From Cyanobacterium sp. T60_A2020_053 (lineage in GTDB: Bacteria; Cyanobacteriota; Cyanobacteriia; Cyanobacteriales; Cyanobacteriaceae): DNA of 64,000 nt. The notes beneath the pieces were generated by a model that saw nothing but the letters and a program-made list of their open reading frames with translations, was not told the DNA's origin and did not search any database. The stretch spans positions 1-64,000 of the forward strand of contig JACYMF010000113.1 in the NCBI GenBank assembly GCA_015272165.1, written 5' to 3'. The translations under genes and the position numbers were made by a program. Position 1 is the stretch's first letter. Each line of letters begins with the position of its first letter. This document shows, in pieces, positions 16,552 through 25,314 of the stretch.

Positions 16552-17064
16552 ATGGCAAAAATTGGCTTATTTTATGGCACTCAAACCGGTAACACCGAAA
16601 CTCTCGCCGAATCAATTCAAAGCGCCCTTGGTGGTGATAGTATCGTTGATTTATATGATGTTGCTGATATTGAACCTAGTGATCTTGAAGGCTATGATTA
16701 TTTAATTATCGGTTGTCCTACTTGGAATGTAGGAGAATTACAGAGCGATTGGGAAGGTTTATACGAAGATTTGGACGATCTCAATTTTGAAGGCAAAAAG
16801 GTTGCTTATTTTGGTGCTGGAGACCAAATTGGCTATGGTGATAACTTCCAAGATGCCATGGGTTTATTAGAAGAAAAAATTTCCGCCAATGGTGGCAAAA
16901 CCGTTGGTTATTGGTCAACAGAAGGTTATGATTTTAATGAATCTAAAGCTGTTAAAAATGGCAAGTTCGTTGGTTTAGCCATTGATGAAGATAACCAATC
17001 TGACTTGACTGATGAGCGCATTCAGGCTTGGGTAAAACAAATTAAATCCGAGTTTGGATTGTAA
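16552..17064 (+). CDS. isiB: Flavodoxin (iron-stress electron carrier)
   Basis: FMN-containing electron carrier that replaces ferredoxin after photosystem I under iron limitation. The phosphate-binding loop FYGTQTGNTETLAE, the PTWNVGELQSDWEGLY loop and the GAGDQIGYGDNFQDAMG segment define a long-chain flavodoxin of 170 residues. It lies upstream of isiA with a 119-base gap, the reverse of the usual isiA-isiB order. A palindrome lies just upstream of the start. Confidence 0.96.
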   Translation: MAKIGLFYGTQTGNTETLAESIQSALGGDSIVDLYDVADIEPSDLEGYDYLIIGCPTWNVGELQSDWEGLYEDLDDLNFEGKKVAYFGAGDQIGYGDNFQDAMGLLEEKISANGGKTVGYWSTEGYDFNESKAVKNGKFVGLAIDEDNQSDLTDERIQAWVKQIKSEFGL

Positions 17065-17183
17065 TAAAACTTAACTTATTTTTATTGCATAAAATTATCA
17101 AGTAAGTTAATTTATGTACAGGCTTATTGAATAAAAATCTTAATAAGCCTGTAAAACAAAAAGAAGATAAACATAACTATTGT

Positions 17184-18212
17184 ATGCAAACTTACGATAA
17201 TCCGAACGTAAAATATGACTGGTGGGCAGGAAATGCCCGTTTTGCGGCCCTTAGCGGTTCATTTATTGCAGCGCACGTCGCTCAAGCGGCTTTAACTGTG
17301 TTTTGGGCGGGCGCTTTTACCTTGTTTGAAATTTCTCGTTTTGATGCCGGTTTACCGATGGGTGAACAAGGATTAATTTTGTTGCCTCATTTAGCTACCC
17401 TCGGTTGGGGGTTAGGTGACGGGGGGCAAGTAGTGGATACTTATCCTTATTTTGTCATTGGGGCAATTCATTTGATTTCGTCAGCATTTTTGGGCGCTGG
17501 GGCTTTATTCCATACCCTCAAAGCGCCCTCCGACCTGAGCGAAGCCTCTGGACAAGCTAAAAAATTTCATTTTGACTGGAATGATCCTAAGCAACTAGGA
17601 TTAATTTTAGGACACCATTTATTATTTTTAGGGGCAGGGGCGCTACTTTTAGCAGGAAAAGCCATGTATTGGGGCGGTTTATACGATTCCACCACCCAAA
17701 CCGTGCGCTTGATTACCAATCCTACCCTTGACATTGCCACCATTTACGGTTATCAAACCCACTTTGCTAGTATCAGCAGTTTAGAAGATTTGGTGGGCGG
17801 ACATATTTATGTCGGTATTATGTTGATTGGCGGAGGAATTTGGCATATTCTCGTACCGCCTTTGAAATGGGCAAAGCAGGTGTTAGTTTTCTCAGGAGAA
17901 GCAATTTTATCCTACTCTTTAGGAGGAATTGCCTTAGCTGGTTTCGTTGCTGCCTATTTCTGTGCCGTGAATACCCTCGCTTATCCCCCTGAGTTTTATG
18001 GTCCTGTTTTGGAAGTTAAGCTGGGTATCATGCCCTATTTTGCCGATACCATCGATTTACCCTACGGACAAAATACTTCTCGTGCGTGGTTAGCAAATGC
18101 GCATTTCTTCCTCGCTTTCTTCTTCTTACAAGGTCATCTTTGGCACGCCATTCGCGCTTTAGGCTTTGATTTTCGCCGAGTAGAAAAAGCCTTTGAGTCT
18201 CTGGAAGCCTAG
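17184..18212 (+). CDS. isiA: Iron-stress chlorophyll-binding protein IsiA (CP43')
   Basis: Six-helix chlorophyll a antenna of the CP43/Pcb family that rings photosystem I under iron stress. Start set at the ATG 17184 ([21 protein letters not shown]), the conserved IsiA N terminus; a TTG 57 bases upstream adds an unrelated extension. The 342-residue length and the absence of the long CP43 lumenal loop separate it from PsbC. Histidine-containing helices are visible ([55 protein letters not shown]). It follows flavodoxin and probably shares its transcript. Confidence 0.95.
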
Positions 18213-20559: not shown

Positions 20560-21462
20560 TTATTTTATATCTATTAATTGAGTAAGTATTTTAGTTACTT
20601 TAGTGTCTAAATCTTCACTTAAAGAATGATGAGGAATCTTTAATTTTTCTAAAATTTTGGCAAATTTCATAAATCCATTTTCTCCTCTTAATTCTATCCA
20701 ATTTACGCCTAAAATATTCGCTTGTTGTTTGTTTAAATCAGATAGTTTATCGGCAACAAAAATATTGGTTTCTCTGGCAAAGATTGCATCAGCACTTTCT
20801 GGATTGCCTTTACCCATTAATTTCACTTCACAACGATAATAGTTTTCATTATTTATTAAATAAAAATCAACTTCTCTCATACTTTCAGGAATATTAGTTT
20901 GATCAAAATGAACCAAAGGAACATCAAATAAATAACATAAAGAAGCCATTAAATATTTTTCTACTTTTTTCCCTGCCGTACTCCATAATCCTCCTCTTAA
21001 AGCTGCCCTTTTTACCGCTAAAGTATTAATAACAATTAGACTTTCATTTATATTCAAATCAACGCTAACACCCCTAAATTTAATAGTGAGAGTTAAATCA
21101 ATCTCATTTTCATTCTCTATTAAGTTACTAATTGATTCATATAAAACGTCATAATGTTCATTAGAAGCATTGATAACTATTTGTTTAGAGGCTGAATTAT
21201 ACATATTAGTAATGGTTTTTGTATTTAAACCAGAATTAATTGCTATTTCCTTTGACGTTAATTTCGTATCTAAAAAATAGTTTTTATACCAATCTTGAGT
21301 TAAATCTTTATTTTTGAGTTTAGCATCAACAATTTGTTTGAAAAATTCTATAGCAAACTGTAAAAATTCAGCATTAATTAAAGCAATAACTTCTATTCTA
21401 TAGTCCTGTCCTTTTATTAAACGTTTAATAATATTTTTAATAACTTGGTCTGTTAATGTCAT
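20560..21462 (-). CDS. Type II restriction endonuclease, CfrBI-like
   Basis: A 300-residue protein. A PD-(D/E)xK-like site is visible in REVDFYL followed by YRCEVKLMGKGNPESADA (residues about 195-225), a segment I associate with CfrBI-family enzymes, which cut CCWWGG. An HTH-like stretch (LTSKEIAINSGLNTKTITNMYN) lies near residues 70-90. It starts four bases after the methyltransferase stop, so the two form an operon. Specificity is inferred only from resemblance. Confidence 0.8.
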   Translation of the reverse strand: MTLTDQVIKNIIKRLIKGQDYRIEVIALINAEFLQFAIEFFKQIVDAKLKNKDLTQDWYKNYFLDTKLTSKEIAINSGLNTKTITNMYNSASKQIVINASNEHYDVLYESISNLIENENEIDLTLTIKFRGVSVDLNINESLIVINTLAVKRAALRGGLWSTAGKKVEKYLMASLCYLFDVPLVHFDQTNIPESMREVDFYLINNENYYRCEVKLMGKGNPESADAIFARETNIFVADKLSDLNKQQANILGVNWIELRGENGFMKFAKILEKLKIPHHSLSEDLDTKVTKILTQLIDIK

Positions 21463-21466
21463 TTTC

Positions 21467-22909
21467 TTAGAAAGAAATATTTTGAAACTCAGTGAAAGTT
21501 AAAAATTTTGTTTTTCTCTTTTGAAATAAAGAAGGAGTAGATTCTTGACTTTGAATATAATTAAAATATTCTACATTTTGTTCTGTTAAAAAAAATAGTC
21601 TATCTAATGCTTTTGCTACTTTTCCAACAGTACCACTACCACCAAAAGGATCGAAAACCAAATCTCCCTTATAAGAATAATATTGTATCACTTTGCGACA
21701 AAGTTCTTGAGGAAAAACTGCTGAATGTACCTTATCAAAACATGGATCAATTTTCCAAACGTTAGATGTTTCATAATCTCCAGTAACTTTACTCTCCGTT
21801 ACAATCTCCTCTGAATATTGTCTAATATTCCAATCTAATAATTTAGTTGTTTCTTTTCGATAAACCATTAAATATTCAGTCACTGGATTAGGCTTATACC
21901 CTAATGGTTTTTTATGTTGCATAAATCCACCAATTCTATTTTTGACGCTAGTTTCAGGTTTTAACCAAATAATATCATCGATAAATTCCCAACCATTTTT
22001 AACTAAAAAATAATGAAGATCAAACGGAATACCATATCTTTTACTACTATGCGCTCGGCTTATTCTCGGAATAATAATAGGGGAAGTATTAACAATTAAA
22101 AATCTACCTTCTTTTGTTGTGCGATGAATTTGTTGAAAAACTTGATTTAAAAATTCTAAATATGATTCGTAACTAGGATAAATCGAATAATCTCTCGCAT
22201 TATAATAAGGTGGAGAAGTAAAGGTTAAATGAATACTATCATCTGGTACATATTCTAATATTTTTAAAACATCTCCATTAACAACTACATTTTTAAGAAA
22301 TTCATAAGTTTTAGTATGAGGTAATTTACTTTTATTATTTTCTTCGGTAGAAAAATATTTTATATATATAGCAGTTCTTACCATTTCATTAGGATGATTA
22401 ATTAATTTTTTTAGTTCTTGAGATACTTTTTTAATGTCATCAAAAATCATCAAACTACGGATTGCTTGACATACAATTTTTGGATCTTCATCTTCTAAAA
22501 CAGATAAAAGAAAATCAACGTTTTTAAAATCTCTTTGTCTTCCTATTGTTGAAATTATTTCTCTCTTAACAATAGTTTCTTTTTCCTCTTTAAAAAGTTG
22601 TTTTAAGCTGTCTAAGTTATATTTATAAACAAGTTTTCCAATAGCTTTAATTGCATTGACTCTAACTTGTTTATGAGAATGATTTAATAAATTAAATAAA
22701 AATTTTCCATCAAAATTTGAAGGTAGTTTCCCTAAATTTTCAAGAATAAAATTAATGGTTGATACATCATTTTGTTTAGAAATTAAATTACCTATTTCAT
22801 TACTATTTTCAATTTTTAAACTAGAAATTAACTCTTTACTAATGACCATAAGTTGATTTATATTGCTTAGTACCAAACTTGATTGTAGCTTATTTTCTGA
22901 TAGCGACAA
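21467..22909 (-). CDS. HEAT-repeat/DNA methyltransferase fusion (probably N4-cytosine)
   Basis: The C-terminal roughly 280 residues are a DNA methyltransferase: motif IV TSPPY near residue 230 comes before the SAM-binding motif DPFGGSGT near 419, a beta-class order found in N4-cytosine and some N6-adenine enzymes. The first roughly 200 residues look like HEAT repeats (LLNHSHKQVRVNAIKAIGKL, REIISTIGRQRDFKNVDFLL, EDEDPKIVCQAIRSLM). It should protect the host from the adjacent CfrBI-like nuclease. The listed start is TTG; an ATG at 22846 is an alternative. The coding sequence is conspicuously AT-rich. Confidence 0.85.
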   Translation of the reverse strand: MSLSENKLQSSLVLSNINQLMVISKELISSLKIENSNEIGNLISKQNDVSTINFILENLGKLPSNFDGKFLFNLLNHSHKQVRVNAIKAIGKLVYKYNLDSLKQLFKEEKETIVKREIISTIGRQRDFKNVDFLLSVLEDEDPKIVCQAIRSLMIFDDIKKVSQELKKLINHPNEMVRTAIYIKYFSTEENNKSKLPHTKTYEFLKNVVVNGDVLKILEYVPDDSIHLTFTSPPYYNARDYSIYPSYESYLEFLNQVFQQIHRTTKEGRFLIVNTSPIIIPRISRAHSSKRYGIPFDLHYFLVKNGWEFIDDIIWLKPETSVKNRIGGFMQHKKPLGYKPNPVTEYLMVYRKETTKLLDWNIRQYSEEIVTESKVTGDYETSNVWKIDPCFDKVHSAVFPQELCRKVIQYYSYKGDLVFDPFGGSGTVGKVAKALDRLFFLTEQNVEYFNYIQSQESTPSLFQKRKTKFLTFTEFQNISF

Positions 22910-22918
22910 AAATCAAGA

Positions 22919-23523
22919 TTAACAAAGATTGATTACTTTTAAATTATCTCTGTCTTGTATGGATTTTAGTCCGGGTAAGTCTAAAAATTCAACTCCGATA
23001 CCTTGAGGAAGCCTGATAAACCTAATTCATTGGCAGGGAAAAGAGGAGCAAAAGCCTGAATTTTAGGGGCAATTAGTTCTTTTTTCTTCCTTCTTTCATG
23101 GTAACTGTGCATTACCACTTGAATTTTATTATAAAGCTCGTCATCACTTAAATTTGTCCATTCTCCCGTTTCCCAAACTGCATCGGGAGTAGGCTCGATG
23201 ATTAATCTACGCTCATCAGAATGTCTTAATGTCAATACACCGCCACTCATTTCCCCTGCTTCGATGGGCGCTATACTTCTTCCCATCAAAGCGTTAACTG
23301 CTGTTGATTTTCCTGATGAAGTTGTGCCGATAGTGGCAATGGATAAGGTGGGGTGTGACAGGCGCTGGGTTGCTTCGGCGTGCGCTGTGCGGAAGTCGTC
23401 TAAATTATTTTTGATGGTTTCATCTTCAAACACTTCAGGGGAGAAGTTAACAAGGTTAGAAACTGCATTCCCTAATTCGCTGAGGATGTTTCGAGTATTT
23501 TCTAGTTTGTTGTCAATATTCAT
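22919..23523 (-). pseudogene. Dynamin-like GTPase, frameshifted and truncated
   Basis: The N-terminal 180 residues have a dynamin-type G1 loop GTTSSGKST and a switch region EMSGGVLTLRH. The frame then ends at TAG (22981). A one-base shift near 23000-23015 restores LPQGIGVEFLDLPGLKSIQDRDNLKVIN, including the G3 motif DLPG, before another stop at 22919. The remaining GTPase and stalk domains are missing; ten bases further on the methyltransferase gene begins. This looks like a gene cut off by arrival of the restriction-modification pair and later frameshifted. Confidence 0.82.
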
Positions 23524-24739: not shown

Positions 24740-24964
24740 ATGCTAATTACCGTAACCTACGATGGAAAAGTATTAAAACCCAAAGATAAATTAAACTTAG
24801 ATACAGATAAAGAATATCAAATTCAAGTAATTGATGAATCTTCGCAATTTTACTTAATCAATGAATTAAAAAAATCTGCCGATTTATACGCTGAAATTTA
24901 TCAAGAAGATTTAGATTTACAACAGTTAACGGAGATAGCTTGTGAGGATTTTATCGAAGAATGA
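24740..24964 (+). CDS. Antitoxin of a MazF-type pair (AF2212/DUF104-like)
   Basis: A 74-residue protein: LITVTYDGKVLKPKDKLNL at the N terminus resembles AF2212-like (DUF104) antitoxins, followed by an acidic helical tail (AEIYQEDLDLQQLTEIACEDFIEE) suited to blocking a toxin. Its stop overlaps the start of the MazF/PemK-type gene by four bases, the typical antitoxin-first order. A family A repeat lies 90 bases upstream. Confidence 0.75.
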   Translation: MLITVTYDGKVLKPKDKLNLDTDKEYQIQVIDESSQFYLINELKKSADLYAEIYQEDLDLQQLTEIACEDFIEE

Positions 24965-25314
24965 TTTTAACTAGAGGTATGATTATCAATGTCAATCTTA
25001 ATCCGACTTTAGGTTCAGAAACAGGAAAAATAAGACCATGTGTCATAGTAACAAATAATATTTATAATCAACGAGTTCCAGTAATTCAAGTCGTCCCCAT
25101 AACAAATTGGACTGAAAAAAAAGCTAAAATAAAAACTAACATTGAAATTACCCCTTCTTTAGTAAATAATTTAGATAAAAAATCTATTGCTGACTGTTTA
25201 CAAACTCGCCCCATTGATTATAATTCTCGATTTGTCAGTTTCAGAGGAGAATTAGAAAATGATTTTATTCAACAAATAGATAATGCCTTAAAAATTGTTT
25301 TTTCTTTAACTTAA
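24961..25314 (+). CDS. mazF: MazF/PemK-family mRNA interferase toxin
   Basis: A 117-residue endoribonuclease toxin. Family segments: RGMIINVNLNPTLGSETGKIRPCVIVTNN (with GxExGKxRP), VPVIQVVPITNW and SIADCLQTRPID. The loop arginine in RP and the Thr/Ser-rich sheet are in place and the frame is intact. It overlaps the upstream antitoxin by four bases and is one of at least three toxin-antitoxin-like modules in the 18-26 kb island. Confidence 0.9.
   Translation: MILTRGMIINVNLNPTLGSETGKIRPCVIVTNNIYNQRVPVIQVVPITNWTEKKAKIKTNIEITPSLVNNLDKKSIADCLQTRPIDYNSRFVSFRGELENDFIQQIDNALKIVFSLT

Follow-up and report, generated by a model that had tools for sequence, protein, structure and literature searches.

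A widespread HEAT-repeat-bearing form of CfrBI-like type II restriction-modification systems, with a candidate DNA-gripping face on its methyltransferase

What does a domain of helical repeats do at the front of a restriction-modification methyltransferase? The question is raised by two adjacent minus-strand genes in a 64,000-nucleotide stretch of DNA (the window, by which we mean the whole stretch analyzed). A preliminary description, made from the sequence alone, had read them as a CfrBI-like system in which HEAT-like repeats precede a TSPPY...DPFGGSGT methyltransferase and may bind DNA or control the nuclease. DNA-gripping HEAT repeats are familiar chiefly from glycosylases and from complexes that organise chromosomes. 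Were such a module to serve a sequence-specific methyltransferase, its role would be testable within a single 460-aa protein, and it would represent a new DNA-recognition module for a well-studied enzyme class, conserved across many phyla and also in viral copies.

The two open frames (21467-22909, 480 codons, and 20560-21462, 300 codons, both on the minus strand and spaced by 4 nt) lie where they had originally been placed. The longer frame opens with TTG, and an ATG at 22849 corresponds to its residue 21. Given that the methyltransferase of a Microcystis relative (L008) starts at the equivalent ATG and that the remaining relatives align from about that point, the ATG at 22849 appears better supported as the start than the TTG at 22909, and the protein is numbered from it here (Table 1). 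Outside the window, the 20 residues preceding this ATG were seen only in a decayed copy in genome G119; some open frame lies upstream of the methyltransferase in 14 relatives. The locus is a type II restriction-modification operon in the order methyltransferase, then nuclease.

Table 1. Features of the locus, with positions in the window and residues numbered from the ATG at 22849 for the methyltransferase.
Feature	Position	Strand	Remarks
HEAT-methyltransferase gene	21467..22849	-	460 aa, ATG start; alternative TTG at 22909 gives 480 aa
HEAT alpha-solenoid (predicted)	22346..22849	-	residues 1-168; Pfam HEAT_2/HEAT, AlphaFold2 helices, VIA-align alphaRep match
Candidate concave-face core R96, E97, S100, G103, R104	22538..22564	-	residues 96-104
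Candidate concave face, second part K124, Q128, R131	22457..22480	-	residues 124-131; 75/75 members
Beta-class DNA methyltransferase domain	21545..22294	-	residues 186-435; Pfam N6_N4_Mtase
Motif IV TSPPY	22205..22219	-	residues 211-215; invariant across alignment A2
Motif I DPFGGSGT	21629..21652	-	residues 400-407; nearly all invariant in A2
RE_CfrBI-family restriction endonuclease gene	20560..21462	-	300 aa; begins 4 nt past the methyltransferase stop
Putative PD-(D/E)XK active site D199 ... E212-x-K214	20821..20868	-	invariant in 65/65 aligned nucleases
Truncated dynamin-like GTPase gene	22981..23523	-	Dynamin_N 5.1e-9; flank, outside the system

Pfam searches detected HEAT_2 (6.4e-14; 52.5 bits against a cut-off of 27.7), HEAT (1.2e-8) and N6_N4_Mtase (3.1e-35) in the methyltransferase, and both HEAT_2 and N6_N4_Mtase in all 75 aligned members at E 0.001. 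These members are the 75 methyltransferase rows of alignment A2, from which eight of 82 (L040, L042, L075, L083, L084, L085, L088 and L097) were omitted as fused, extended, frameshifted, cut or second-copy sequences. Within the N6_N4_Mtase domain, motif IV lies ahead of motif I, the order that marks beta-class amino-DNA methyltransferases; together with the Pfam matches, this bears out the joining of a HEAT N-terminus to a beta-class enzyme. TSPPY favours N4-cytosine as the methylated base, which is probably the base modified here.

AlphaFold2, run with the 75-row alignment, predicted eleven helices across residues 5-165, mostly with high confidence (pLDDT of 77-95 per 10-residue block over residues 1-160), and VIA-align matched residues 12-168 to an artificial HEAT-like alphaRep (Z 16.7, rmsd 2.4, 152 residues). 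Both results support an alpha-solenoid, the structure anticipated for the N-terminus; the repeats themselves thus stood, but not the length of about 200 residues first given for them, which comes down to about 165 residues, or five to five and a half repeats. The model of the whole methyltransferase (mean pLDDT 68, pTM 0.41) does not permit the domain arrangement to be read because its methyltransferase half is poorly predicted.

How common is this layout? A scan of contigs from genomes revealed at least 519 relatives among the stretches examined, and the best 80 of these, which were examined further, all match across the HEAT part and the methyltransferase at 58-71% identity. A rare one-off fusion is thereby ruled out. 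A phylum label was available for 76 of the 80 best loci and names 16 phyla, one of them an archaeal candidate phylum, although single labels may be wrong because many loci come from metagenome bins. The type is sparse in Cyanobacteriota, where eight of 292 sampled genomes match: the window's genome and G253 carry full-length copies, G119 (only residues 1-212 of the 480-residue frame) and G095 (which stops inside) carry decayed ones, and the other four match in the catalytic part only. In the phylum of locus L027, 10 of 395 genomes match, that of L027 included, with six full-length copies, two partial or short, one decayed and one catalytic part only. The bacterium Raineya orbicola (G293) has two HEAT methyltransferases (L049 and L085) and no matching nuclease.

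This distribution bears on whether the HEAT part could be a dispensable passenger, acquired by accidental fusion with a cyanobacterial NblB-like HEAT protein. An NCBIfam match to such a protein (1.1e-8) points that way but falls far under its cut-off, whereas the same fusion recurs in 16 named phyla with invariant surface residues, and we consider the passenger reading highly improbable. An NblB origin was rejected as the main reading because most members, 43 of the 80 best loci, belong to Bacteroidota. A tree of 28 rows without an outgroup (14 of the 75 A2 rows) separated its 17 HEAT-bearing rows from the others by a branch supported at 90/76, which also speaks against a passenger but is not decisive. 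In a quick tree of 58 rows (38 of the 75 A2 rows), two viral copies with a short HEAT part were unplaced and the outgroups were overly long.

The preliminary description knew of no standard account of this layout, and allowed that it might prove both common and described. It is common, and falls partly within a PADLOC profile (PDLC03276, below), but no published description was found in the largely open-access literature that we searched, REBASE being outside its scope; the CoCoNuT papers appear to concern type IV systems. The system is thus ordinary type II in kind and a widespread HEAT-bearing form that is undescribed as far as searched.

We assigned repeat positions by registering the HEAT repeats on the alphaRep alignment (PMC3754942, Table 3), in which the variable positions 18, 19, 22, 23, 26 and 30 are described as forming the concave-face surface that binds the target. 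K68, K72, R96, E97, S100, R104, P123, K124, Q128, R131 and E155 fall at these positions. In the core of the face, R96, E97, G103 and R104 are identical in 75 of 75 members and S100 in 74. Basic and polar residues make up most of this nearly invariant inner face. Among residues 45-168, identity reached at least 95% at 11 of the 24 alphaRep-variable positions versus 20 of the 100 others (Fisher p 0.011; 75 members), and the mean identity of the variable positions was reached by 7 of 20,000 random position draws. The signal is best read as an unusually conserved candidate binding face that does not stand out from the helix itself, because the hydrophobic core positions in these helices are about as conserved (0.81, against 0.83 for the concave positions) and positions 2, 6 and 10 are more so (0.89).

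To what might such a face bind? Beta-class enzymes often form dimers, and the solenoid could be an intramolecular or protein-protein dock that rests against the catalytic domain or joins two subunits into such a dimer. Among the 50 structural matches listed by VIA-align, the closest folds to the HEAT part are protein-binding alphaReps and armadillo proteins, which would suit a dock, though this ranking may reflect only a general likeness among solenoids. Neither AlkD nor any other natural DNA-binding HEAT protein occurs in that list of 50, an absence that excludes nothing. E97, which lies in the face alongside the basic residues, also fits a dock, as does the general picture of HEAT repeats as more commonly protein binders than nucleic-acid binders, as discussed in PMC4081403. 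Charge argues otherwise: the net charge over the 16 ladder positions (3, 4, 7 and 11 of four repeats) lies between +4 and +6 in each of the 75 members, and related catalytic domains exist without any HEAT part. On balance we find docking doubtful. The HEAT repeats of AlkD form a concave cleft for DNA, which their second helices line and furnish with positive residues (PMC4081403).

The partner gene product matches Pfam RE_CfrBI (1.3e-24; 87.3 bits against a cut-off of 25), so the naming of the system as CfrBI-like holds for its nuclease, and matches PADLOC REase_II PDLC03496 at 7.5e-106. Its model is good (pLDDT 87, pTM 0.80). The fold matches listed include BsoBI and Can2/Cdn1, the best being BsoBI (1dc1; Z 10.8, rmsd 3.7, 219 residues), whose sequence identity to the window nuclease is 12% and whose specificity is not transferable. 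On this core fold D199, E212 and K214 are invariant in all 65 nucleases of alignment A3 (the window's and 64 of the 65 listed, L030 being omitted), a D ... E-x-K pattern that we take to be the PD-(D/E)XK catalytic motif. A helix-turn-helix-like stretch, EIAINSGLNTKTITNMYNSASK, occupies residues 70-90 of the same protein (21193-21255, minus strand), with G78, N80, K82, I84 and N86 invariant in A3.

A homologous nuclease lies directly downstream on the same strand at 70 of the 80 best loci, at 64 of them as a frame of at least 290 aa. The two genes overlap at 55 of the 70, by exactly 4 nt at 42, and the nuclease is probably translationally coupled to the methyltransferase in most relatives. The remaining ten loci lack a downstream nuclease (L036, L040, L049, L053, L067, L071, L084, L085, L088 and L097), of which L084 and L085 stand on records that end too near, with 560 and 114 bases left, to judge its absence. 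Two methyltransferases are extended: that of L042 has about 110 additional C-terminal residues ahead of an intact nuclease gene, and that of L040 continues past its usual end for about 300 residues that show no similarity to the nuclease.

Copies without a partner allow the second half of the original proposal, control of the nuclease, to be weighed. A search with the nuclease profile gave no match in any of the eight genomes or records that hold six nuclease-less bacterial copies (L008, L036, L049, L053, L067 and L071) and two viral ones (L102 and L111), and matched all eight control genomes known to carry the nuclease. All six bacterial copies keep K68, K72, R96, E97, S100, R104, K124, Q128 and R131. 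The viral copies are solitary methyltransferases, and the records that hold them (118 and 115 kb) may be fragmentary; their N-terminus is shortened and gives no Pfam HEAT match, so that their HEAT part is recognised from the alignment, where they agree at R96, E97, S100, G103, R104, Q128, R131, N154 and E155, with K124 lost in both. Across all eight copies, R96, E97, S100, R104, Q128 and R131 persist. A comparable short form that has a nuclease, L187, lies just under the HEAT_2 cut-off (27.6 against 27.7 bits) and keeps the R96-R104 core, Q128, R131 and N154, with K124 lost and D in place of E155. Nucleases that are not homologous may still accompany the partnerless copies: at L067 an unnamed 354-aa gene overlaps the methyltransferase end.

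A HEAT part that touches the partner nuclease, holds it in check or governs its expression would be in keeping with the tight gene pair at 70 of the 80 loci and with known methyltransferases that regulate nuclease genes, as by promoter methylation in CfrBI (PMC12707154). We nevertheless judge such control unlikely, as the face residues are kept where the genome or record holds no matching nuclease, including the two possibly fragmentary viral copies; a role as nuclease interface only was disfavoured on the same ground (0/8, against 8/8 in the control). The alternative originally posed between DNA binding and nuclease control is therefore narrowed, with DNA binding fitting the conserved concave face best. 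Retention of the face without a recognisable nuclease makes it most likely that the HEAT domain acts for the methyltransferase, probably as a grip on DNA, and not as a control on the nuclease.

The explanation that we rate best, and hold at slightly better than even, is that the inner face of the HEAT solenoid grips DNA for the methyltransferase of this type II operon. The curved solenoid would lie on the DNA beside the catalytic domain, and its inner, second helices would grip the backbone or read bases through basic and amide side chains (K68, K72, R96, S100, R104, K124, Q128 and R131). This grip may steady or bend the DNA as the beta-class domain flips out the target base and methylates it, and the PD-(D/E)XK nuclease of the RE_CfrBI family would cut sites left unmethylated. 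The chemistry of methylation itself needs no HEAT part, since catalytic relatives lack one and some viral relatives lack any N-terminal domain. Only tentatively do we consider that the solenoid might be a new DNA-recognition arm, whose invariant R-E-x2-S-x2-G-R ... Q-x2-R face would read or clamp DNA beside the target site and set part of the specificity, and which CfrBI-like enzymes without HEAT would replace by another N-terminal domain.

The surroundings of the system were inspected as well. The flanking dynamin-like gene (within 22850-23523, minus strand) is broken and has a frameshift: its match to an 832-residue relative in genome G693 extends only over about the initial 204 residues. 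In G119, a decayed copy of the system, 91% identical in its HEAT part, lies beside the same kind of gene, which is broken at about residue 285, and this suggests that the system arrived in, or shares history at, the dynamin-like GTPase gene. In that copy (L009/L018) the HEAT part persists as a 227-aa frame, the methyltransferase domain is gone, and the nuclease is left as fragments of 72 and 86 aa. A PemK/MazF-like toxin gene (24961-25311, plus strand; 2.2e-25) lies near the system. Elsewhere in the window, at 16552-18212 (plus strand), a flavodoxin gene precedes one of the PSII family (CP43-like); the pair resembles iron-stress isiB/isiA, but with flavodoxin first.

The site recognised by CfrBI is C^CWWGG, and the methylome at CCWWGG sites had been proposed as a check. 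For the HEAT branch this specificity is an unsupported assumption, and one that should not be made because the HEAT and CfrBI types diverge at many positions in the target-recognition region between the catalytic motifs. In six genomes with the HEAT methyltransferase, sampled at 100-400 kb each (five also with the nuclease, G293 without), CCWWGG ranked 61 of 438 palindromic patterns in site counts and so gained no support; the top avoidance ranks, GGCC, GATC, CTAG, TATA and CATG, seem to be general or attributable to other systems.

Comparison with known systems places the locus as follows. With AlkD-type glycosylases, which are a different enzyme, the likeness noted is in the HEAT fold, a solenoid with basic residues on its concave second helices (PMC4081403). 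PADLOC profile MTase_II PDLC03276 matches residues 84-449 of the 480-residue query, covering part of the HEAT domain and the catalytic domain, and REase_II PDLC03496 matches 65 of 65 nucleases, but these are profiles only, with no named architecture, function or specificity for the HEAT part. The catalytic domain, and only that domain, is about 48% identical to the methyltransferase of a CfrBI-annotated Klebsiella plasmid system, and the window nuclease falls in Pfam RE_CfrBI; the two nucleases themselves gave no phmmer match at 1e-3. The Klebsiella plasmid methyltransferase differs in having another N-terminus, of about 110 residues and not HEAT. This type of N-terminus, which has no Pfam name, occurs in L019 and its kin and in cyanobacterial and viral copies such as L011, L014 and L106, and viral L101, L105, L107, L110 and L113 have the catalytic domain without an N-terminal domain. 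Gene order differs too: in CfrBI the genes are divergent with overlapping promoters, as reported in PMC12707154, and they are divergent in the Klebsiella plasmid and L019, whereas they are tandem with the methyltransferase first in the window and in all 70 nuclease-bearing loci. Three arrangements of the CfrBI-like catalytic domain thus exist, one preceded by HEAT repeats, one by a different N-terminus and one by no such domain, and the present system belongs to a HEAT-bearing branch of the CfrBI-like type II systems.
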